Shown piece after piece: positions 38,429 through 63,720 of a stretch of DNA of 64,000 bases (its first letter is position 1; each line of letters starts with the position of its first letter). The notes under the pieces are model-generated. The model saw only the letters and a program-made list of their open reading frames with translations. It had not been told where the DNA came from and made no database searches. This stretch comes from Parietichytrium sp. I65-24A (Eukaryota; Sar; Bigyra; Thraustochytrida; Thraustochytriidae), in contig BLSF01000055.1 in assembly GCA_012862575.1 (NCBI GenBank), forward strand, positions 3,698-67,697, given 5' to 3'. The translations under genes were made by a program, and so were the position numbers.

Positions 38429-40681
38429 TTAGTTGGCAAGTAGGGTTACGGTATTTGCAGAAGCAAAAGAGTCGATCTCGGGATCGTCGCGGGTTGTCTC
38501 ATCTGTGAGAGCCATAGAATTGGTGCGCAGAGCCTGAGGGTCTTCGCGCTCCTCGTTAATTTTTTGATTGTCCTCATCGTCGTTGTTGGAAGGTACGTCA
38601 TGGTTCGTGAACGAGTTGAGATCCACAGTCACCTGCCTATCAGATATACTGGTGGACGACGCGGAGCTGCTATCATCCGTTCGCATGTGATCAAGCCCAA
38701 CGACGCGGTGATTTGCAGACGCGGTGGCGAAATACTGCACTCTCTTTGTGTCGGTATTGTCGGAGTGAATCGCGTTGACTTGCGCGGAAGAGTTTTCCTC
38801 AGAGCGCGAAAAAGAATTGCCAATAGCGCTTCTCGGTGTTCCAACAGCAGGTTGAGGAGTCGCACGGTCGGGAGATTTCGTGGACACATTCCCAGGCGCT
38901 GGTGAAACCATCTCTTCGTGATCCGTGCTCTGGTAAACTTCGGAGCAGTCATCACTTATGCCGTCGTCTTCGCTGAAAAAGTCGTCATCGTTTTCGAAGC
39001 GAAATTTAGTCGAAGTCACGCGCTGAATAGTATCACAATCCTCTTTGCTCATGATTTCAATAAAATTTTCCACCGTGAGTTTGTTACCGAGACCGCGTTT
39101 GCTGTTTTCGCGCGCAACTTTGGCGACTTCCTCGTTAACGTAAGTCGTATCTTTGATCTGCTGCGTGAACATTGCTTTCAGCTCCTCAAGGTCAATGTAC
39201 CCGTCGTGATCATAGTCGAGGCGCTCAAAAGCATGCCGTACCACAGTTTCGTTCTGATAATAGCTTTCGTTCAGCGCCGCGGCGATGAACTCGTTAAAAT
39301 GAATCTGGCCGGTCTTGTCAAAGTCCATGGCATCGAAAATCTCCCGTACCTCCTCGCTGTTGAGTCTGGAGTGACTTGTGAGCTCCTCGCTCAATTCTTC
39401 GAAAGAAATGTAGCCATCCGAGTTTTTGTCAATCATCTTGAAAGTTTCCTCCAGGTCCTTTATCTCGTCGTGAGACAGGCAGTAAGCCACTGCTTGGAGT
39501 GCGATACGTTTAAATTGTGTGTCTTTGGCGTAAATATATAAACTGCGAACGGTCTCTTTGTCTAGTCCACACTTGCCCAGGCTGCCGTCCGAGCTGGTGA
39601 CATCTTCAGGACAGAGCCATGGATGGTTGAGCGCCTCCTTGGCGGTCATACGCTGGCGAGTGTTCTTCACTAAGCACTTTCGGACAAAGTCCTTGGCTTC
39701 CTCGCTGATTGTCATCCACACTGGCTTGGCCATGGAGTAAACGCCTGTCAGAGCAGAAGCCATGATCTTTTGCTCAGAATCGCCCTTGAAAGGCGGGGTT
39801 CCGGAGAGAAGCATGTACACGATTACGCCGAGGGACCACACGTCGCACTCCACTCCATAATTCTTCTTTAGAACCTCCGGAGCGATGTAATACGACGAGC
39901 CAACCACATCGTGCATCTGATCCGCGTCGCTAGAGTCGTATTTTACAGACAGCCCAAAGTCGATAAGAACCAAGTCATCCCCGCCTTTGTCGCGATAAAC
40001 AAAATTTTCGAGCTTCAGGTCACGGTGAACGATCTCGCGGGAGTGAAGATAGGCTATGGCGCTTGTCATTTGCCTGGTGACGTAGCGCGCCTGGCTCTCC
40101 GAGAATCTGCCGCGCTTAGACTCGACTGTAAGCCGCTTGAATAGCTCGCCGCCAGCGAGCAGCTCCATGACAAGGTACATGTTCAAACCTTCCTCTTCAT
40201 AAGTTTCGTACAGCTTGGCAATATGCGGATGATCCAGTTTGGAAAGCACCAAAATCTCATCCAGCAACTCTTTCTTGCGGTGCTCAGACATGTGCTTTGA
40301 CAACCTAAGAATCTTGCATGCATACTTGCGCCCATCGTCCTTGCGGGTGACTACCCTCACAGTGCCCCAATTTCCAGAGCCTAGCCAGTTCTTGTCGTTC
40401 GGATCTGTAGGCCCGGCGGGATGCTTTCTTCTGTACGCCGACGGGGAAGACAGGCCATCGTAGGTCTTGCGGATGTTCTCCCCGAGATGCAACTGTACGA
40501 GAGCCTCATTGAGCGTGCTCATCTGCCTTTGAAACAGGGCTTGCCCTGTCAAGGAGTCCGACCTGCTCCTCCTCTTCGCGGGCGAGTTGCTGTTTCCGGA
40601 GTTGGCCTTAATCGCGCTCACGGGCTTGGAAACCCTCTTCTGGCCGCTCCCTTTCGCATCTTTTGACGACACGCATCCCAT
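38429..40681 (-). CDS. Calcium-dependent protein kinase (CDPK)
   Basis: 750 residues from the ATG at 40681. The start MGCVSSKD has the Gly2 and Cys3 of an N-myristoylated, palmitoylated membrane anchor. The kinase domain (about 98-360) has the glycine loop GSGNWGTV, the Lys in YACKIL, HRDLKLEN, DFGLS and APE. An autoinhibitory junction follows, then EF-hands with intact loops DKNSDGYISFEE, DFDKTGQIHFNE and DYDHDGYIDLEE, plus a fourth whose loop is degenerate. About 180 Ser/Thr/Asp-rich residues extend beyond the usual CDPK end. CDPKs couple calcium to phosphorylation and are known from plants, alveolates and some other protists. The intact motifs suggest an active, calcium-activated enzyme. 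Confidence 0.95.
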   Translation of the reverse strand: MGCVSSKDAKGSGQKRVSKPVSAIKANSGNSNSPAKRRSRSDSLTGQALFQRQMSTLNEALVQLHLGENIRKTYDGLSSPSAYRRKHPAGPTDPNDKNWLGSGNWGTVRVVTRKDDGRKYACKILRLSKHMSEHRKKELLDEILVLSKLDHPHIAKLYETYEEEGLNMYLVMELLAGGELFKRLTVESKRGRFSESQARYVTRQMTSAIAYLHSREIVHRDLKLENFVYRDKGGDDLVLIDFGLSVKYDSSDADQMHDVVGSSYYIAPEVLKKNYGVECDVWSLGVIVYMLLSGTPPFKGDSEQKIMASALTGVYSMAKPVWMTISEEAKDFVRKCLVKNTRQRMTAKEALNHPWLCPEDVTSSDGSLGKCGLDKETVRSLYIYAKDTQFKRIALQAVAYCLSHDEIKDLEETFKMIDKNSDGYISFEELSEELTSHSRLNSEEVREIFDAMDFDKTGQIHFNEFIAAALNESYYQNETVVRHAFERLDYDHDGYIDLEELKAMFTQQIKDTTYVNEEVAKVARENSKRGLGNKLTVENFIEIMSKEDCDTIQRVTSTKFRFENDDDFFSEDDGISDDCSEVYQSTDHEEMVSPAPGNVSTKSPDRATPQPAVGTPRSAIGNSFSRSEENSSAQVNAIHSDNTDTKRVQYFATASANHRVVGLDHMRTDDSSSASSTSISDRQVTVDLNSFTNHDVPSNNDDEDNQKINEEREDPQALRTNSMALTDETTRDDPEIDSFASANTVTLLAN

Positions 40682-45168: not shown

Positions 45169-47286
45169 ATGGAGTCCAACGAGGCGTATGGCCTCTCCGA
45201 CTCGGGCTCTGAGATGGACTCGGACTCGGACTCCGAGCAGCTGGAGCTCGTCCCGCACTACTCTCCGTCTGCGTCCCCATCGTCCCATTCGTCCGAGTAC
45301 GGTCCCCGCGGTCAGTCCCATGATCAGTCCCAACAGCAGCAGCAGCAGCACTCGGACAATGGGCACCACAGGCGCCACGTGCACCGCGAGTATGAGGAAG
45401 GCGTCTTCGCGATGGTGTGCGGGAAACGCAAGCTGGCGGTCCTCGTAGCTGGCGTCGGAGGCTTAGTTGTGCTGATGCTGATGCTGGTGCTGGTGAGCGG
45501 GACGATGGGTGTGGCTGTAGGAAATGGGAACGAAAGCGGGGTCGAGAATGGGTCTGGCATCGGCGTTGGCCCTGGGAATGCCGGTGCGGACGTCGAAGGG
45601 GGTGGAGATGGGCGTGCGGGAGGCAAGGATAAGGAGGATGTGGAGAACGGGCATGTGTTCGTGCATACGCCGAAGAGCGACGATGGCGATGAATCTGTCG
45701 GGGACACGCTGGGGCACGCAGATGTGAGGCTCGGGTTCGATGGGAGCAAGTTTAGGAAGATCAGCCAGGTGCTCATGACACTGGCGGCCACGGACACGAG
45801 CTACATGTTCAGGTTCACGGTGGAGGAGCTGCAGGTCTTGCGGCAGGACAAAGAATGCCGCGAGCCGTTGGAGACCACTTTTGTGGTCAAGCTCTCCGGC
45901 GGGCAAGAACCGCTGTACGGCGTGGCGGAGCACCACGGATGCATCGTGTCGGAGAGCAAGGGCACCTTTTTGTGGCATTTTTACGGCGCCACGTTCCACG
46001 GCCTCGCGAGAAATACACAGTATACGTATGAAATCGGACAGCTTGACTTTGAGCATTTGGACGTCGGGAAGGGGCAGGCTGTCGGCGCAAGTGGGGTCTA
46101 CAGTGGCAAGTTCAAGACCATGCCTGAGAATAAGAAAGACGCCAAAATAATGTTCGTAGGCGACACCGGAACGGTGGGCCGCAAATATGTGCTTCCCCAC
46201 ATGGCCAAACACGCTGCGGGTATTGACGCCATCGTGCACGTCGGAGACATGGCGTACACGACCGATGTTGGAGAATGCTACACCGCGGAGATCACTGATC
46301 CAGAGTGCCGTTTTGATTGCCCACCTCACAACCCCAACTGCAAAGGGAGAAACCGTGCTACCGAACAACTTTTCTTGAAGTGGGTAGAGTTTTTCGAGGA
46401 CTTAGAGCCGCTCAGCTCCTCCATTCCTGTGCTGACAACGATGGGCAACCACGACAACGACCTCATTTGGTTCTTCAAGTTCCGTCCTCCTCATCCGACG
46501 AGCTACCGAAACGTGAATTATCGAGAAGATATCTCTCACAAATCTTTTGCGTATCTTAGCAAGTTCCAATCTTCCCTCAAAGGGAAACCCACTTTTACGC
46601 AGCAGGCATACCTGAACAGTGTCCTGCCTGAGAACTTCTTTTTCAGCGTGAATGTAGGCCCATTTCATATCATATCACTACAGTCTGAAGACAACGGCAT
46701 TAATCCGTACGAGCGTGCTAGTCAGGTGTCCGAAAAGTACGGAGCCCAAAATGACAAGAGGTTCGACCTGCATCTTGGTAAATCTTCAAAGCAGTTGAAG
46801 TGGTTGGAGAGCGACATCCGCAATGTTAACAAGACGGAAACACCCTATGTCATTGTGTTTTCGCATCGCCCGGTCCTGCACACCTCACATCATCATCCGA
46901 TGTGCGAATTGGGTGGAGATTGGTGGCGCTGCCGCATGCGCGAAACATACATGCCCGTCTTTGAGCGCCTTGGCGTCAGACTGGTCTTTAATGGGCACTC
47001 GCATCACTACTCTCGTTCAAAACCTGTTCATTACGACTCGGCTTCAAAGTCCATTCTCGTCACCGAAGGCGATGATGCCAAGCTGCGCTCTCCTTCCTAC
47101 CTCATTGTCGGGTGTGGGGGCTATCGCCTTTCACAGGGCTTCATGTTCACGCCAGACTGGATTGCCAATCGCAATGATAGGGAGTTTGGGTTTGGAATCT
47201 TGGAATCTAGTGACTCCGAGACAGATCTCAAGTGGACAATGTACGGGAGCAACAGCCAGACTGTGATAGAAACCGCGTCCCTTTAG
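45169..47286 (+). CDS. Membrane-anchored purple-acid-phosphatase-like metallophosphatase
   Basis: 705 residues from the ATG at 45169 (MESNEAYGLSD); the frame is open above this but has no ATG. An acidic, Ser/Gln/His-rich cytosolic part comes first, then one membrane segment at about 85-110 (LAVLVAGVGGLVVLMLMLVL), which suggests a type II protein with the enzyme outside the cytosol. A fibronectin-like domain precedes the catalytic domain. All seven metal ligands of the purple acid phosphatase family are present: GDTG (D332), GDMAY (D360, Y363), GNHDN (N427), SHRP (H566) and GHSHHYS (H610, H612). The family hydrolyses phosphomonoesters with a binuclear metal site. The substrate is unknown. A close paralogue lies at 51158-53293. 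Confidence 0.9.
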   Translation: MESNEAYGLSDSGSEMDSDSDSEQLELVPHYSPSASPSSHSSEYGPRGQSHDQSQQQQQQHSDNGHHRRHVHREYEEGVFAMVCGKRKLAVLVAGVGGLVVLMLMLVLVSGTMGVAVGNGNESGVENGSGIGVGPGNAGADVEGGGDGRAGGKDKEDVENGHVFVHTPKSDDGDESVGDTLGHADVRLGFDGSKFRKISQVLMTLAATDTSYMFRFTVEELQVLRQDKECREPLETTFVVKLSGGQEPLYGVAEHHGCIVSESKGTFLWHFYGATFHGLARNTQYTYEIGQLDFEHLDVGKGQAVGASGVYSGKFKTMPENKKDAKIMFVGDTGTVGRKYVLPHMAKHAAGIDAIVHVGDMAYTTDVGECYTAEITDPECRFDCPPHNPNCKGRNRATEQLFLKWVEFFEDLEPLSSSIPVLTTMGNHDNDLIWFFKFRPPHPTSYRNVNYREDISHKSFAYLSKFQSSLKGKPTFTQQAYLNSVLPENFFFSVNVGPFHIISLQSEDNGINPYERASQVSEKYGAQNDKRFDLHLGKSSKQLKWLESDIRNVNKTETPYVIVFSHRPVLHTSHHHPMCELGGDWWRCRMRETYMPVFERLGVRLVFNGHSHHYSRSKPVHYDSASKSILVTEGDDAKLRSPSYLIVGCGGYRLSQGFMFTPDWIANRNDREFGFGILESSDSETDLKWTMYGSNSQTVIETASL

Positions 47287-47927: not shown

Positions 47928-49382
47928 TTATCTGGATGCGAAAACGGCCACAAGAGCCGAGACAAAGGTAGTTGCTGCGAGTTCTCTTGGAACGCCACTT
48001 GATGGGACCAAGGTTTGCACCGGTGCGTTGCTTGGCGCAATTGTAGGTTGATACGTTGGGGATTTAGAGGGCTTATTTGTTGGTTCCGGCGTTGGTGCTC
48101 TAGTTTCATTTTGAAGGGTAGGAGCAAAAGTGGTCGGGCTCTCGGTAGGCGACGCTGTTGGACTGTACGTCTCGCAGGAGATGACACATCCCATGCAATG
48201 CCCGTCGGAATCATTGTGCCACACGAATCCGGTTTCCGGGTTGGAGCACACAAAGAGCTCGTCAGGAGTGTCGTCTGTGCAAGTCGTGGTGTTGCTCCAT
48301 GCACGGCATTGCATCCAGCAATAGTGCTCACCTGACTCACACGCTGTAGCCGAATCTTCGAGTTGGCGCCCTCCAGTGCAACCAACGCCCACGCTTGTAG
48401 GGTCTTTGTCCACCACTGCGCGTATCTCCTGTGCACGATGTTCTTTAAAAGTGTAGCCAGAAGACTTTACAATCGCATCCTGAGGTGGCATAAACATGCG
48501 CCCATACCACAGCCTCATGTCATCGCTTGGTGCTGCGGAGCAAGAGTCTGCAAGCGAAAGGGAGTGTGGAACAGGGCGGAAATGCGCCTTGCAACTTCCG
48601 AACCACGTCTCGCTGCCTTGCCCCATCATGAACACGAGTGCATCGCCGTTCTCGGCGAAACTAGGCCGGAGGGCTCTTCCATCGGCCGTCTGTACAGTGA
48701 AACCGAGAGCAGAATCGATGTCCTGAACATCGCTCCCGCCGTTAAGCCAGAGAGAAGGAAGGAACGCAATGAAGAGTCCTTCATCTGTGTGCATGTCGAG
48801 GGACTTCTGGCCAGTACCTTCGCAGTTTGCTTGGTATGCATGGAAATGATCGAGGTGTTCCCCACTCTGAACGAAATCTACCAAGTCGCGGTAGGGCAAG
48901 GTCGGGGACTCGGCGATTGGCGCATGGCGTTCGTTTTCACTCCCACAGATGGAGTCGAGTTGTCGCACAACCGCGTCAGACACCTTCGTGACCAAGTTCC
49001 TGAGCTTATCGCTCCATTCAGAGAAGTGCATGCAGGCACTGGGGGTTTCCTTCACGAAGACGTCTTTTATGCCAAAGGAGCTGGCGTCGCCATTCAAAAC
49101 TGTCGCAGCAAACGTCTTGCGAATCGACCCGTCCACCAAAGCAAACGTGGCCATGGTATCCGAATGCCTCAGGCACTCTGCCGCACTGAGCATTGCATTA
49201 TTGCGCATCTCGCGAAGACCCGGCACTCCGGTCACCTGAAACATGCCCTCCAAAGTTGCCGCTTGGGCAAGAAGTGCGGACGGATTGCCATGCTGGATAC
49301 CGGCAAAGTCAATCTCGGGCAGGACGAACTCGGAGCCAGCCGCGCCCATCACAATCGACCCAAATACCATGAGCTTGTGCAT
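47928..49382 (-). CDS. Secreted 2OG-Fe(II) dioxygenase-like protein, probably GPI-anchored
   Basis: 484 residues from the ATG at 49382, which begins a signal peptide (MHKLMVFGSIVMGAAGS). The next segment, LPEIDFAGI, looks like the start of the DIOX_N domain of isopenicillin-N-synthase-type oxygenases. The iron triad is suggested by HTD (H198, D200) and the His in RPVPHSL (H273). A Cys-rich module (about 345-410; CWMQC, CMGCVISC) follows, then a Pro/Ser/Thr tail (PTASPTESPT) like those on stramenopile surface proteins, and a hydrophobic end (ATTFVSALVAVFA) after a small-residue site, fitting a GPI-attachment signal. Dioxygenases of this class are normally cytosolic, so a secreted one is unusual. 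Activity is likely but unproven. Confidence 0.72.
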   Translation of the reverse strand: MHKLMVFGSIVMGAAGSEFVLPEIDFAGIQHGNPSALLAQAATLEGMFQVTGVPGLREMRNNAMLSAAECLRHSDTMATFALVDGSIRKTFAATVLNGDASSFGIKDVFVKETPSACMHFSEWSDKLRNLVTKVSDAVVRQLDSICGSENERHAPIAESPTLPYRDLVDFVQSGEHLDHFHAYQANCEGTGQKSLDMHTDEGLFIAFLPSLWLNGGSDVQDIDSALGFTVQTADGRALRPSFAENGDALVFMMGQGSETWFGSCKAHFRPVPHSLSLADSCSAAPSDDMRLWYGRMFMPPQDAIVKSSGYTFKEHRAQEIRAVVDKDPTSVGVGCTGGRQLEDSATACESGEHYCWMQCRAWSNTTTCTDDTPDELFVCSNPETGFVWHNDSDGHCMGCVISCETYSPTASPTESPTTFAPTLQNETRAPTPEPTNKPSKSPTYQPTIAPSNAPVQTLVPSSGVPRELAATTFVSALVAVFASR

Positions 49383-51157: not shown

Positions 51158-53293
51158 ATGCTGTGCGCGGACGACGCGAGCACGGGTTCTTCCGAGGCCG
51201 AGGACCTCCTCAACGACCCGCACGGAACGTTCCTGGAACTGCGCGGCCGTTCGTTCAGCGGCGATTACGACTATGAAGCGGCGGCGGGAGAGAGAGACGC
51301 GGCGGTTCTGCGGTCGGACCAGTCGCTGGCGAACGATGAGGCGACTTCGACTGCGGCGAACGTGGCGACTGCGGCGGAGAGCGGCAGTCCCCTAACTGCG
51401 GAGGACGCGGAGTGCGAGGAAGAGCTGCGGACGCTCAAGCTGGCGCGGCTGGCGGGGTACTCGGGCGGCGCGGAGCGCGTGGCGCGCGCGGTGGAGGGGG
51501 CGATGCGCTGGTGCCGCTGCGCCATGCTCCTCCTGCTCGCGTGCGTGGCCGCGCTCGCGCTCGCGCGCGACTCGCGCGACTCGGCTGGTGGCGGCGGCGG
51601 CGGTTCTCCCGCGCAGAACCCGGGCGGGGACGCGGGCGAGAACCCGCACGAGGAGCTGGCGGAGGTGGAGGGGATGTTCGTGAACCTGGAGGTGTACGCG
51701 GTGCGCGACGTGGTGCTGCGGCTGGGGCCCGCGGGGACGATGGTGGTGGCGTTCACGGTGGAGGAGGATCGCGCGGCGGCGGCGGCGGAGGCGACGGGCT
51801 CGCAGGAAGAGGGGTGCGCGGAACCGGCGACGGACATGTTCTTCGTGCGCGCCCGCGCGAGGAGCAGCGGCGCGGCACGAGCAATGGAGAGGGTCGCAGC
51901 AGCGAGGCACGTGGGGTGCGTCGCGGCGGAGGACAACGCGCGCCGCGTGTGGCACTTTTACGACGCCCTGCTCGAGGGCCTTCCCTCAGGAACCGTCTGG
52001 GCATACGTCGTGGGTCAGCTCTTCGACAGCCACGCCTCCCCGCAGGAGCTCCCGCAGACCAACGCGGGCGTATTTACCTCCTGGTTCCGCACTCTGCCGG
52101 CCGCCAGGGACCAGACGGTCGTGGCTTTCGTCGGCGAGACCGGCGCAGATGGCCGCGAATACGTGTTCTCCAGCCTGGCCGCCCGCGCGGGCAAGAACCT
52201 ACACGCGCTGGTACACGTGGGCAGCATGGCCGTCGCGGACGACCAGACGCCGTGCGAGGGCGCGGCACAGGGGTGCGAGTACAACTGCTCGGCTGCTTTG
52301 GGCGCCGGTAACGCGACGTGCGCCGGCACCCATCGCGCCACAGACCTGCGGATGGACCGGTGGGCCGCCTTCTTTGACGAAATCCAGCGAGTCTCCGCGA
52401 GGATCCCAATGCTGGTGGCAAGGGGTAGTATGGACAATGACCTTGTGTGGTTCTTCAAGTTCAGGCCCCCGGCCATACACCCGCACGACGCCAACGAGGA
52501 GCGCTTGCCAAGCAACGCCCGCCGCATCCTGGACATGTTTCGGACCACGCTCAAGGGCAGGCCGGCGGCGCTGCAACAAGCTTACCTGAATGAACTTCTT
52601 GCCGAGCCTTACTTTTACGAGACTTCCGTGGGGCCGTACCAGATTGTGTCGCTCCAAACCGAGGACAATGCCGTGGATCCCTTGGAATCCGGCGCCAGCG
52701 GCGACAGTTTCGATCAGTGGAGGTTCGACAGCCACTTTGGCCCGGCGTCCCCGCAGTACACCTGGGCCAAGCAGGTCCTTTCCGCAGGAAGTGCGGAGCA
52801 AAGTATCGGGCAATCATTAAAGTGGAAGGTCGCCCTCTCTCACCGGCCTCTGCTGCCCTCTTTTAAGGAAGCACCGGATTGCAGCGCCGAACGTTCTCTG
52901 CCGTGGTACAGATGCAAGTTCCGGCAGACGTATCTCCCTCTTCTGGAGGCTGCGCAAGTTTCGCTTGTAGTGAGCGGCCACGAGCACCACTACTCCCGCT
53001 CGAAGCCACTCGCGTACAATGCCACAGCGGACTCGGTCAGAGTGACAGACGTGGATCGGTGGCTTCCCACTCTGGCGATTGTGGGATGCGGCGGGAGCGA
53101 GCTGACAGCGACTTGGCGAACGGCGCAGGAACCAAACTGGGAGGCAATGCGAAATAATGATTATTATTGTTATAGCACGTTAGGTCCATCTGGCGGATCC
53201 AAAGTTCACTGGCGCACATTCGCGGCAAATAAAGGCGACAAAGTTCTGGACACTGTTGATCTGATCCCGGCAATAAATACTAGGGCACCGTGA
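51158..53293 (+). CDS. Purple-acid-phosphatase paralogue with lost metal ligands (pseudophosphatase)
   Basis: 711 residues from the ATG at 51158. The architecture matches the protein at 45169-47286: acidic cytosolic part, one membrane segment (CAMLLLLACVAALALA, about 115-130), fibronectin-like region, metallophosphatase domain. The two are plainly paralogous (e.g. HHYSRSKP, LVWFFKFRPP here and LIWFFKFRPP there). Four of seven ligands are replaced: GETG (Asp to Glu327), GSMAV (Asp to Ser356, Tyr to Val359) and GSMDND (Asn to Ser424). The adjacent catalytic His is Met425. The three His of SHRP and GHEHH (H562, H608, H610) remain. The frame is intact and the fold conserved, which argues for a non-enzymatic role, not decay. 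The first 1 kb is far more GC-rich than the sister gene. Confidence 0.87.
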   Translation: MLCADDASTGSSEAEDLLNDPHGTFLELRGRSFSGDYDYEAAAGERDAAVLRSDQSLANDEATSTAANVATAAESGSPLTAEDAECEEELRTLKLARLAGYSGGAERVARAVEGAMRWCRCAMLLLLACVAALALARDSRDSAGGGGGGSPAQNPGGDAGENPHEELAEVEGMFVNLEVYAVRDVVLRLGPAGTMVVAFTVEEDRAAAAAEATGSQEEGCAEPATDMFFVRARARSSGAARAMERVAAARHVGCVAAEDNARRVWHFYDALLEGLPSGTVWAYVVGQLFDSHASPQELPQTNAGVFTSWFRTLPAARDQTVVAFVGETGADGREYVFSSLAARAGKNLHALVHVGSMAVADDQTPCEGAAQGCEYNCSAALGAGNATCAGTHRATDLRMDRWAAFFDEIQRVSARIPMLVARGSMDNDLVWFFKFRPPAIHPHDANEERLPSNARRILDMFRTTLKGRPAALQQAYLNELLAEPYFYETSVGPYQIVSLQTEDNAVDPLESGASGDSFDQWRFDSHFGPASPQYTWAKQVLSAGSAEQSIGQSLKWKVALSHRPLLPSFKEAPDCSAERSLPWYRCKFRQTYLPLLEAAQVSLVVSGHEHHYSRSKPLAYNATADSVRVTDVDRWLPTLAIVGCGGSELTATWRTAQEPNWEAMRNNDYYCYSTLGPSGGSKVHWRTFAANKGDKVLDTVDLIPAINTRAP

Positions 53294-61170: not shown

Positions 61171-63720
61171 ATGGCGGAGGGGAACACTACACCAGAAGAC
61201 GATGCTTCGGATTCCGAAGGGTCTACTTTCATGCCTAGTAGGGGCCTGAAACAGGCCGGCGCGCGCCCAGAGTCTAGTTCCAAGCCTGAGGCCGCTCAAA
61301 AGCCGATCCCAAATCTTAGGGCATTACTCTTAAATCGCGAAATTGAAGATTCTGGAGAAGCCGACTCTGGAGCGGACGCATCGGCTCAAGATCTCAGAGC
61401 TCTGCTAATGCATGGCTCTGGCAATGCTTCGTCGCGCCAAGACTCAAAAACGGCGCGCCTTCACGGCAACGGGTCCGGTACTGGCACGCCAAGCTCAAAG
61501 GACGCCAGTCTAAAGAAAGTAGACCCAAGTCCCGATCTTCCGGGCCATAAAGGCCCTGAGGTTAGCAAGAGCAAAGTGGACCAGCCGTTGCCGACCAAAC
61601 AGCGCTCGACATCTACAGTGAGCCAGGGCGAAACGGAGGAGGAGAACGCCGTTGCGGAAATCATGGGTTCTCTGGTGCGGTCCGGGGACTCCGAGGAACC
61701 TCCAAAACCAATTTCACCGCGCTCTGGCAAGCCCGTGGAAGAAGTCGTGAGGCTTGAAGGAGTCTATGATGGCACAACGTGGAGCGGGGAGTGGTATTCC
61801 AGCAACGCACCAACGCTCAAGGCGTCATTCGAGTACACGCCGGATCTGTCGCACGAGATGGATGACGAAATGGAGGATATGCCCTGCGCGATTTGCTCCG
61901 GTGCCGACCCGGAAGGATTCTTGTTTTGCGACCTGTGCAATGGGGGTTTTCATGCAAAGTGCTGTAACATTGATAAAATCCCGGACGTAGAAGCGGACTG
62001 GCATTGTCCTAATTGTGTTCGAGTTCTTGAGACTTATGGAAACTCACTGCCTCCAAGCCGTTCGTGGAAGGGGTGGTTCGAGATGCGTTCAAACCGCGTT
62101 CAAGAGAGATTCGAGTTGTCCTTCAAGTACGTAGATGTGGCCCAACGGAAGTCGCAAGGGACAAAATCTGCAGTGGAAAAAATAGCCTCTGTAGCTGGCA
62201 AAGGGTTCAACAAGTTTGGGACATTTGAGATCGATGGAGAATTGTTGGTGGATAGTGCTATGCATATGTGCTGGATGAAGTGCAACAAGGTGTACATTGA
62301 GGCTCCAAAGAAACGCAAGGGGCGCCCTCCAAACTTGCTTGGGAAAAAGAAATCTGAAGGGGCGAAGAACAAACTCCCCAGAACGTCTTCCTTTATTGTG
62401 GAAGAAGAACCCGCCCGGGCTGTGGAGCCAGTGTCAAATGGAAAGAGGAAGGGAAGCGAGGCAAGCAATTCGCCTCGAATCTCAGATCCCGGCCCCAATC
62501 CGAAGCGCAAGCGGTCTGACCCTGCGGGAGGCCAACCACCAACAGTAGCCGTAGGAGCAGGTTCAAGTTATGGCGCGGAAAGAAAGTCTCCAAAGTCCGT
62601 GTATGCCGCGCAGCTGGACGAGGAGCATAACGCCCTCACCATCCGAAAGCTGACAGAAAAAATTGCCCACTTGGAGGCAGAGCTGCGAACTCTAAAGTCC
62701 AGCTCAAAAGTGCTGATGCTTACAGACCTTGACTGCTATCTTCCCATGCCTGTTCGCCAAGACGAGAGCTTCGATTCGGATCGGACCGCCAAAAAGAGCA
62801 ACGACAAAAGGATACCAGAGATCTGGCAACTCCTCACAGAAAACTACAGTGACCAAATCGTCTGGGTATCGGAGACCCCGCGGGCGCCGCTGGAAATCCT
62901 GCTCAAGGCCCATAGCCATACATATTACAGAAATCTGGTGGACCAAGCTTCCAAAAGTGATGACGCACATCTGTGCTTAATGGCTTCCCAGAAGGCCGCA
63001 GGTTGCATTTGTTTGGCCGTTCAAAGGCTGAGCACCCCGTCAGCAAATGTGCCGCAGACCAATTCTTTTAGTTCCTTCGTTTCTCTGAGTCCGCCTGCGG
63101 AAAAGTCAGCAAGAGCAGTGTGTCTCGTGAGCCCTCCCGGGCATAGCATAGGTTGCGAGGGACTTTTGGAGGATGCAGAGAAGGAGCTGGCGAATTCCTA
63201 CTTCAACTCGACTGCCATAGGAGCCATTTACGCGATGGAGAACTACTCCCATCGCGTGGCTGTTGTGGACCTCGGCCCAAAGCCAGGCTTTGGCACGGAA
63301 CAGATATTGTTTGAGTATCTCGCGAACTCAAAGTCGCGCAATGGAGCACTGTTTTTTGGGCACATGCACGCTTCCAAGTCTAACTCTCCAGTCAACCTGC
63401 AGAAAGCGTTGGGAGAGAACAAGTACTACTCGTCCAAAATGGTGCCACCTCTGGATCCGCGCAAGTGGAAGACAACCGTTTCGGAAATGCTCACTCGCAT
63501 CGCAGCCTTCAGGCCGACCCTCCTTTTGTTCTCTATTGGCAGCGATTGGCTCCAGCCGCCGAACAGAGGGACGCTCTCTTTGTCTGAAATTTCCTGGGCC
63601 ACCTCGGAGCTGGCAAACGCGTGCCCTCTTGCGATATCCGTGCTGGAAGGCGGCTTCGACCTGAGTCTTATTCAAGATGCCTTCGGAGCACACATGGACG
63701 GCCTTCTCACGATAGATTGA
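61171..63720 (+). CDS. PHD-finger protein with a catalytically degenerate HDAC domain
   Basis: 849 residues from the ATG at 61171 (MAEGNTTPEDD). Residues 1-235 are acidic and Ser-rich. A C4HC3 PHD finger (about 238-285) has CAIC, CDLC, HAKC and CPNC. A basic region (RKRGRP-like KKRKGRPP, KRKRS) follows, then a short coiled coil at about 490-515. Residues 515-845 follow the class II histone deacetylase fold: AHSHTYY, SPPGH (about 653), FNSTAIGAIYAM, VAVVDLGPKPGFGTE (about 700), LLLFSIGSDW and VLEGGFDLSLI (about 829). Active deacetylases have GHH, DxDxHH and GGY. Here these are GHS, DLGPKP and GGF, so two zinc ligands, one of the paired His and the catalytic Tyr are gone. It probably reads chromatin and acts as a scaffold. 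Confidence 0.83.
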   Translation: MAEGNTTPEDDASDSEGSTFMPSRGLKQAGARPESSSKPEAAQKPIPNLRALLLNREIEDSGEADSGADASAQDLRALLMHGSGNASSRQDSKTARLHGNGSGTGTPSSKDASLKKVDPSPDLPGHKGPEVSKSKVDQPLPTKQRSTSTVSQGETEEENAVAEIMGSLVRSGDSEEPPKPISPRSGKPVEEVVRLEGVYDGTTWSGEWYSSNAPTLKASFEYTPDLSHEMDDEMEDMPCAICSGADPEGFLFCDLCNGGFHAKCCNIDKIPDVEADWHCPNCVRVLETYGNSLPPSRSWKGWFEMRSNRVQERFELSFKYVDVAQRKSQGTKSAVEKIASVAGKGFNKFGTFEIDGELLVDSAMHMCWMKCNKVYIEAPKKRKGRPPNLLGKKKSEGAKNKLPRTSSFIVEEEPARAVEPVSNGKRKGSEASNSPRISDPGPNPKRKRSDPAGGQPPTVAVGAGSSYGAERKSPKSVYAAQLDEEHNALTIRKLTEKIAHLEAELRTLKSSSKVLMLTDLDCYLPMPVRQDESFDSDRTAKKSNDKRIPEIWQLLTENYSDQIVWVSETPRAPLEILLKAHSHTYYRNLVDQASKSDDAHLCLMASQKAAGCICLAVQRLSTPSANVPQTNSFSSFVSLSPPAEKSARAVCLVSPPGHSIGCEGLLEDAEKELANSYFNSTAIGAIYAMENYSHRVAVVDLGPKPGFGTEQILFEYLANSKSRNGALFFGHMHASKSNSPVNLQKALGENKYYSSKMVPPLDPRKWKTTVSEMLTRIAAFRPTLLLFSIGSDWLQPPNRGTLSLSEISWATSELANACPLAISVLEGGFDLSLIQDAFGAHMDGLLTID

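Follow-up and report, generated by a model that had tools for sequence, protein, structure and literature searches.

An open frame of the thraustochytrid Parietichytrium sp. I65-24A encodes a protein in which a complete PHD finger is joined to an HDAC fold of class II type with a degraded catalytic site. We consider it probable that this protein is a maintained adaptor of likely nuclear location, whose PHD finger would sit on H3 tails and whose zinc-less HDAC fold would serve as a protein-binding platform. The frame lies in the window, by which we mean the whole analysed stretch of 64,000 nucleotides (C55:3698-67697) from an assembly of 42.5 Mb in 172 contigs. The features of the frame are compiled in Table 1.

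Table 1. Features of the PHD/pseudo-HDAC frame; positions are those of the window and residue numbers those of the encoded protein.
Feature	Position	Strand	Basis
Complete open frame for the PHD/pseudo-HDAC protein of 849 aa (P0001)	61171..63720	+	ORF reading
Beta-rich stretch before the PHD finger, residues 190-225	61738..61845	+	Single-sequence model of poor quality, showing three strands; pLDDT 60-73 in blocks of 10
PHD finger, residues 239-282, complete Cys4-His-Cys3	61885..62016	+	Pfam PF00628, PDB neighbours, comparison with the genome's further 25 PHD matches
Stretch following the PHD finger, residues 299-378, possibly rich in beta strands (tentative)	62065..62304	+	pLDDT under 50 here
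Basic stretch with KGRP core, residues 375-395; possible AT-hook or nuclear localisation signal	62293..62355	+	By eye
Possible short coiled coil or leucine zipper, residues 485-512	62623..62706	+	By eye
Domain of HDAC fold (class II type) with degraded catalytic site, residues 544-843	62800..63699	+	Pfam, AlphaFold2, Foldseek
GHS (657-659) for GHH: first His kept (H658), second lost (S659)	63139..63147	+	Alignments
DLGPKP (700-705) for DxDxHH: D700 retained, zinc ligands D and H replaced by G702 and K704	63268..63285	+	Alignments
GSD (790-792): third zinc ligand D792 kept	63538..63546	+	Alignments
GGF (827-829): catalytic Tyr to Phe (F829)	63649..63657	+	Alignments

The frame runs from ATG to stop over 849 codons with neither a stop nor a frameshift inside, which bears out the claim of the preliminary description that it is intact over 2.5 kb. 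In 300 base shuffles of the same stretch the longest open run reached 255 codons, with a mean of 119. The window contains 18 further long ORFs with codon-usage scores from 0.009 to 0.148, and the frame (0.033) falls within this range, at its low end. The alternative sense frames +1 and +2 have negative scores (-0.034 and -0.041). Of the three antisense frames, two reach 0.019 and 0.017 and thereby exceed the part of the ORF that comprises the beta-rich stretch and the PHD finger (0.009). Codon usage thus gives weak support for coding, since the score of the ORF is low and the antisense frames come close to it. That sequencing errors or the false join of a PHD gene to an HDAC gene created this arrangement is hardly credible, because both domains lie in one frame without a stop and the motif changes listed in Table 1 require a number of independent base substitutions, none of which disrupts the frame. 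A search of NCBIfam with the protein returned no family, and of five stretches in viral contigs that matched the pattern used to find relatives of the whole protein, none encodes a relative.

Elsewhere in the window, which has few introns, two proteins that look similar by eye are encoded close together on the forward strand. Pfam assigns the first (45169-47286) to the calcineurin-like and purple acid phosphatase families. For the second (51158-53293), which may be its diverged copy, no Pfam family reached 1e-5. On the reverse strand, a CDPK-like protein kinase with EF hands is encoded at 38429-40681, and at 47928-49382 a protein whose C terminus carries a PT/PS-rich repeat and for which Pfam gave nothing at 1e-5. 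The scarcity of introns and the CDPK-like kinase had suggested a red alga or another phototroph; searches for phycobilisome, linker and chlorophyll-binding proteins gave no match and lend this no support, although the assembly may lack plastid DNA. Outside the window, an open frame of 5583 codons (C66:8562-22499) encodes a giant polyketide/fatty-acid synthase, which the PfaA model matches four times within its positions 176-516, the ketosynthase part. Over the genome this model yields 13 partial matches, none of them above cut-off. Since 11 of the 14 bacteria and archaea used as controls also give matches below cut-off, these matches are no guide to a thraustochytrid origin.

The C-terminal domain matches the Pfam family PF00850 (Hist_deacetyl) with 53.9 bits (cut-off 27.9) over positions 4-296 of the 298 of the model, hence at near full length. 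AlphaFold2 predicts residues 500-849 with a mean pLDDT of 79.3 and a pTM of 0.84, whereby 151 of 350 residues reach 90 or more and four segments fall under 50. Since the input alignment consisted of 48 bacterial and viral-contig HDACs, all with intact sites, the model leans towards an HDAC fold, a bias that does not affect the Pfam match. A Foldseek search of the PDB with the model returned class II and bacterial HDACs, with 5ji5 as top match (E 4.5e-14, TM 0.67/0.76, rmsd 4.8, 18% identity), followed by HDAC4, HDAC7 and HDAC6. Over the structural matches identity is 16-20% and rmsd 4 to 6 A. In the viral fold collection BFVD, six matches at E 0.001 or better comprise five HDAC-like proteins and one arginase. 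A tree places the window domain in a group of nine rows, composed of class II HDACs of the same genome and bacterial HDACs (95/98), with its exact place in the group unsettled; the branch of the domain measures 3.94 changes per column, and owing to this length the tree tool flags the placement as unsure. The family profile, the tree and the predicted structure together mark the domain as a class II HDAC fold.

The active site was aligned in one and the same register by phmmer to 5ji5, by MAFFT with 12 HDACs of the own genome and by MAFFT with the 48 bacterial and viral-contig HDACs, the latter chosen from 83 loci of which three were dropped for stops and 32 were not chosen. In this register the substitutions GHS, DLGPKP and GGF are all present, as reported by the preliminary description, which had also noted the order and spacing of class II motifs. 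Its claim of a lost zinc site holds for two of the three ligands, whereas the third is retained. Hereby the ligands D, H and D of the canonical site appear as G702, K704 and D792, and the GF pair, which in HDACs forms part of the substrate tunnel, is gone as well and now reads A674-N675. In HDAC1 numbering, G702, K704 and D792 correspond to D176, H178 and D264, H658-S659 to H140-H141, A674-N675 to G149-F150, P705 to H179 and F829 to Y303. With two zinc ligands, the second His and the Tyr replaced, the canonical site cannot form as aligned, and deacetylase activity has presumably been lost; the exchange of Tyr for Phe is described as a deactivating mutation in HDAC10 (Y307F; PMC5454378).

Across the 48 bacterial and viral-contig HDACs 26 columns are invariant, and the window domain keeps half of them (P655, P656, G657, H658, D700, G706, G708, P782, G790, D792, E826, G827 and G828). 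The other 13 are lost and include the sites now occupied by S659, G702, K704, P705 and F829; as eight further invariant columns are lost along with these, the change is not confined to catalysis. The retention of H658 and D792 and the loss of the GF pair go beyond the preliminary description, as does a second pseudo-HDAC of the genome, of class I type, which is described below.

A purely structural role does not require D792 and H658, and their retention counts against an adaptor and would leave room for ligand binding by the domain. One such role would be that of a reader whose former pocket still takes up acylated lysine but leaves it uncleaved, and the protein would then read two marks; class IIa HDACs have been proposed to read acetyl-lysine through their 'pseudocatalytic' domain (PMC12383505). 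We regard this reading as unlikely for the window domain, in which two zinc ligands and the GF pair are replaced and the segment 660-674, directly after GHS, is modelled at pLDDT under 50. Class IIa domains, moreover, keep zinc. H658 and D792, together with a charged Lys (K704) at a former zinc-ligand position, might instead form an enzyme or ligand site of another kind. This too is improbable, given that in Pfam, the PDB and BFVD no HDAC-fold family or structure of alternative chemistry outscored the ordinary HDACs.

A gene with so long a branch, whose HDAC domain shares at most 27.1% identity with any of the 12 aligned relatives in its own genome, could also be in decay and on its way to a pseudogene. 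To account for neutral drift, we simulated substitutions only in a stretch of 291 codons from an HDAC of the same genome (L008), with 200 runs per step. At 50, 40, 30 and 25% identity the drifted stretch carried 6.8, 8.3, 9.7 and 10.5 stops on average, and at each step none of the 200 runs was still open. Set against the 849 codons of the window frame, which are open without stop or frameshift, this result points to a maintained protein, as the preliminary description had claimed. In line with this, the 13 kept invariant columns are mostly Gly, Pro and Asp. Decay is thus very unlikely. The branch of 3.94 changes nevertheless indicates that constraint is loose at the level of sequence, and change as fast as this would also fit weak constraint, which counts against the adaptor we prefer.

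The PHD finger is matched by Pfam PF00628 with 29.7 bits (cut-off 24), and its zinc residues are C239, C242, C253, C256, H261, C264, C279 and C282. At the position where readers of methylated K4 carry a Trp, it has a Gly (CNGGFH), and thus lacks this element of an H3K4me3 cage. Among the genome's 25 further PHD matches, six or more do carry the Trp (e.g. L122, L123, L124, L126, L130 and L134); ORC1B shares the Gly (CLGGFH). A candidate acidic wall is provided by E248, which aligns with a Glu of UHRF1. Sequence neighbours of the finger in the PDB include UHRF1/2, KDM5A/B, BAZ2A/B and ORC1B, and also MLL3, BRD1, PHF2 and PHF8. PHF2 and PHF8 are K4me3 readers, and the presence of these two and of MLL3 among the neighbours would speak against a reader of unmethylated K4.

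Acidic walls have been described for the fingers of BAZ2A, UHRF1, MOZ and DPF3 and are mostly mutually exclusive with the K4-methyl Trp, and unmodified K4 is read by the first PHD fingers of KDM5 proteins and by BAZ2A/B (PMC5415848). In ORC1b, a BAH domain and a PHD finger jointly read unmodified H3 (PMC6013494). The Gly at the Trp position, together with the alignment of E248 to the Glu of UHRF1, leads us to predict that the window PHD finger may read H3 unmethylated at K4.

For the stretches 190-225 and 299-378 on either side of the finger a family match was sought and none was found, and a single-sequence model of the finger with its flanks (mean pLDDT 39.6) is too poor for naming a fold. 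The flanks may resemble a repeat with the pattern GxGxxxxGxFxIxG. Used as a query against the own genome, the finger with its flanks yielded three other matches, every one confined to the PHD part.

A profile search of the genome with PF00850 gave at least 20 matches, which we grouped into about 14 genes; this is a lower bound, as the best candidates only were scored. Thirteen HDAC rows were aligned at ten active-site positions, with a gene on contig C9 left out which is split over several matches. At all ten positions 11 of the 13 rows are intact, the exceptions being the window protein and a pseudo-HDAC of class I type (L018; C54:107532-108506, reverse strand; Hist_deacetyl 162.1 bits). Like the window domain, L018 belongs to the HDAC family and has lost its zinc site. 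Hereby all three ligands are gone, replaced by S, V and K, and the catalytic Tyr is replaced by S; unlike the window protein, it shows no PHD match within the frame read. In the tree it groups with L009 and L010 (100/99) and, not strongly supported, beside the intact L009 (93/70), with a branch of 1.65 versus 0.098. As the window domain falls into class II and L018 into class I, the two losses of zinc ligands are most likely separate events.

An insert after the GHH motif is common to the window domain and to four class II HDACs of the genome (L013, L014, L015 and L019 on C7, C12, C2 (883667) and C49) and absent from the other own-genome rows of the alignment, suggesting that the window domain derives from this group. 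In contrast to the window domain, these four have intact catalytic sites, and L013 and L014 carry ankyrin repeats, not a PHD finger. L013 (C7:196665-197756) combines in one frame its HDAC domain and ankyrin repeats with a C-terminal PAH (Sin3-type) repeat of 42.4 bits. The corresponding search with PF00628 gave 26 PHD matches, and among the matches found a PHD finger and an HDAC domain share one frame on C55 only, although a fusion split by introns would escape this comparison.

In conclusion, the reading of the preliminary description, a chromatin-reading pseudo-deacetylase, is supported as the best one: the fold is of class II, catalytic residues are replaced and the PHD finger is complete. 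In the adaptor we propose, the PHD finger would dock the protein on histone H3 tails, most likely those unmethylated at K4, and the C-terminal HDAC fold, without zinc chemistry, would act as a protein-binding platform. This platform would bring in an active deacetylase or a corepressor, as the HDAC domain of class IIa does with SMRT-HDAC3; alternatively, it might pair with a second HDAC fold, in the manner of the active and the pseudo domain of HDAC10.

To our knowledge, class IIa HDACs have no PHD finger, and we know of no combination of a reader and a pseudo-enzyme in one chain from animals, fungi or plants. In class IIa HDACs (HDAC4/5/7/9) a pseudo-HDAC domain recruits SMRT-HDAC3 (PMC4498904); the window protein would resemble them in using an HDAC fold as a recruiting module, and HDAC4 and HDAC7 are among its best structural matches. 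It differs in that the catalytic Tyr is changed to Phe and two zinc ligands are gone, whereas in class IIa the Tyr is changed to His (PMC12383505). The C-terminal PsiDAC of HDAC10 is an inactive HDAC-family fold kept in a multidomain protein (PMC5454378, PMC11532494), but its partner in the chain is an active polyamine deacetylase, while the window chain combines a PHD finger with a single HDAC domain and is thus not a tandem of the HDAC10 type. In the literature consulted, the pseudo-deacetylases described (HDAC10, class IIa) are from animals. A search for a PHD-HDAC fusion found none named, which is weak evidence of novelty at a partial coverage with most subscription journals outside it; in PMC10707265 the one PHD finger protein mentioned is a partner, PHF12.

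Pseudo-HDAC domains are known and PHD fingers common, and what may be new is the joining of both. We suggest, tentatively and with some doubt, that zinc-less HDAC folds became non-enzymatic chromatin subunits at least twice in this lineage, once from class I (on C54) and once from class II with a PHD finger, where reader and pseudo-enzyme in one chain would form a corepressor architecture. If this is true, the HDAC fold would have been reused as a scaffold more than once, as a PHD fusion and as a class I pseudo-HDAC of the same genome, and the PHD/pseudo-HDAC protein would offer a simple test for a chromatin role of the HDAC fold apart from catalysis.
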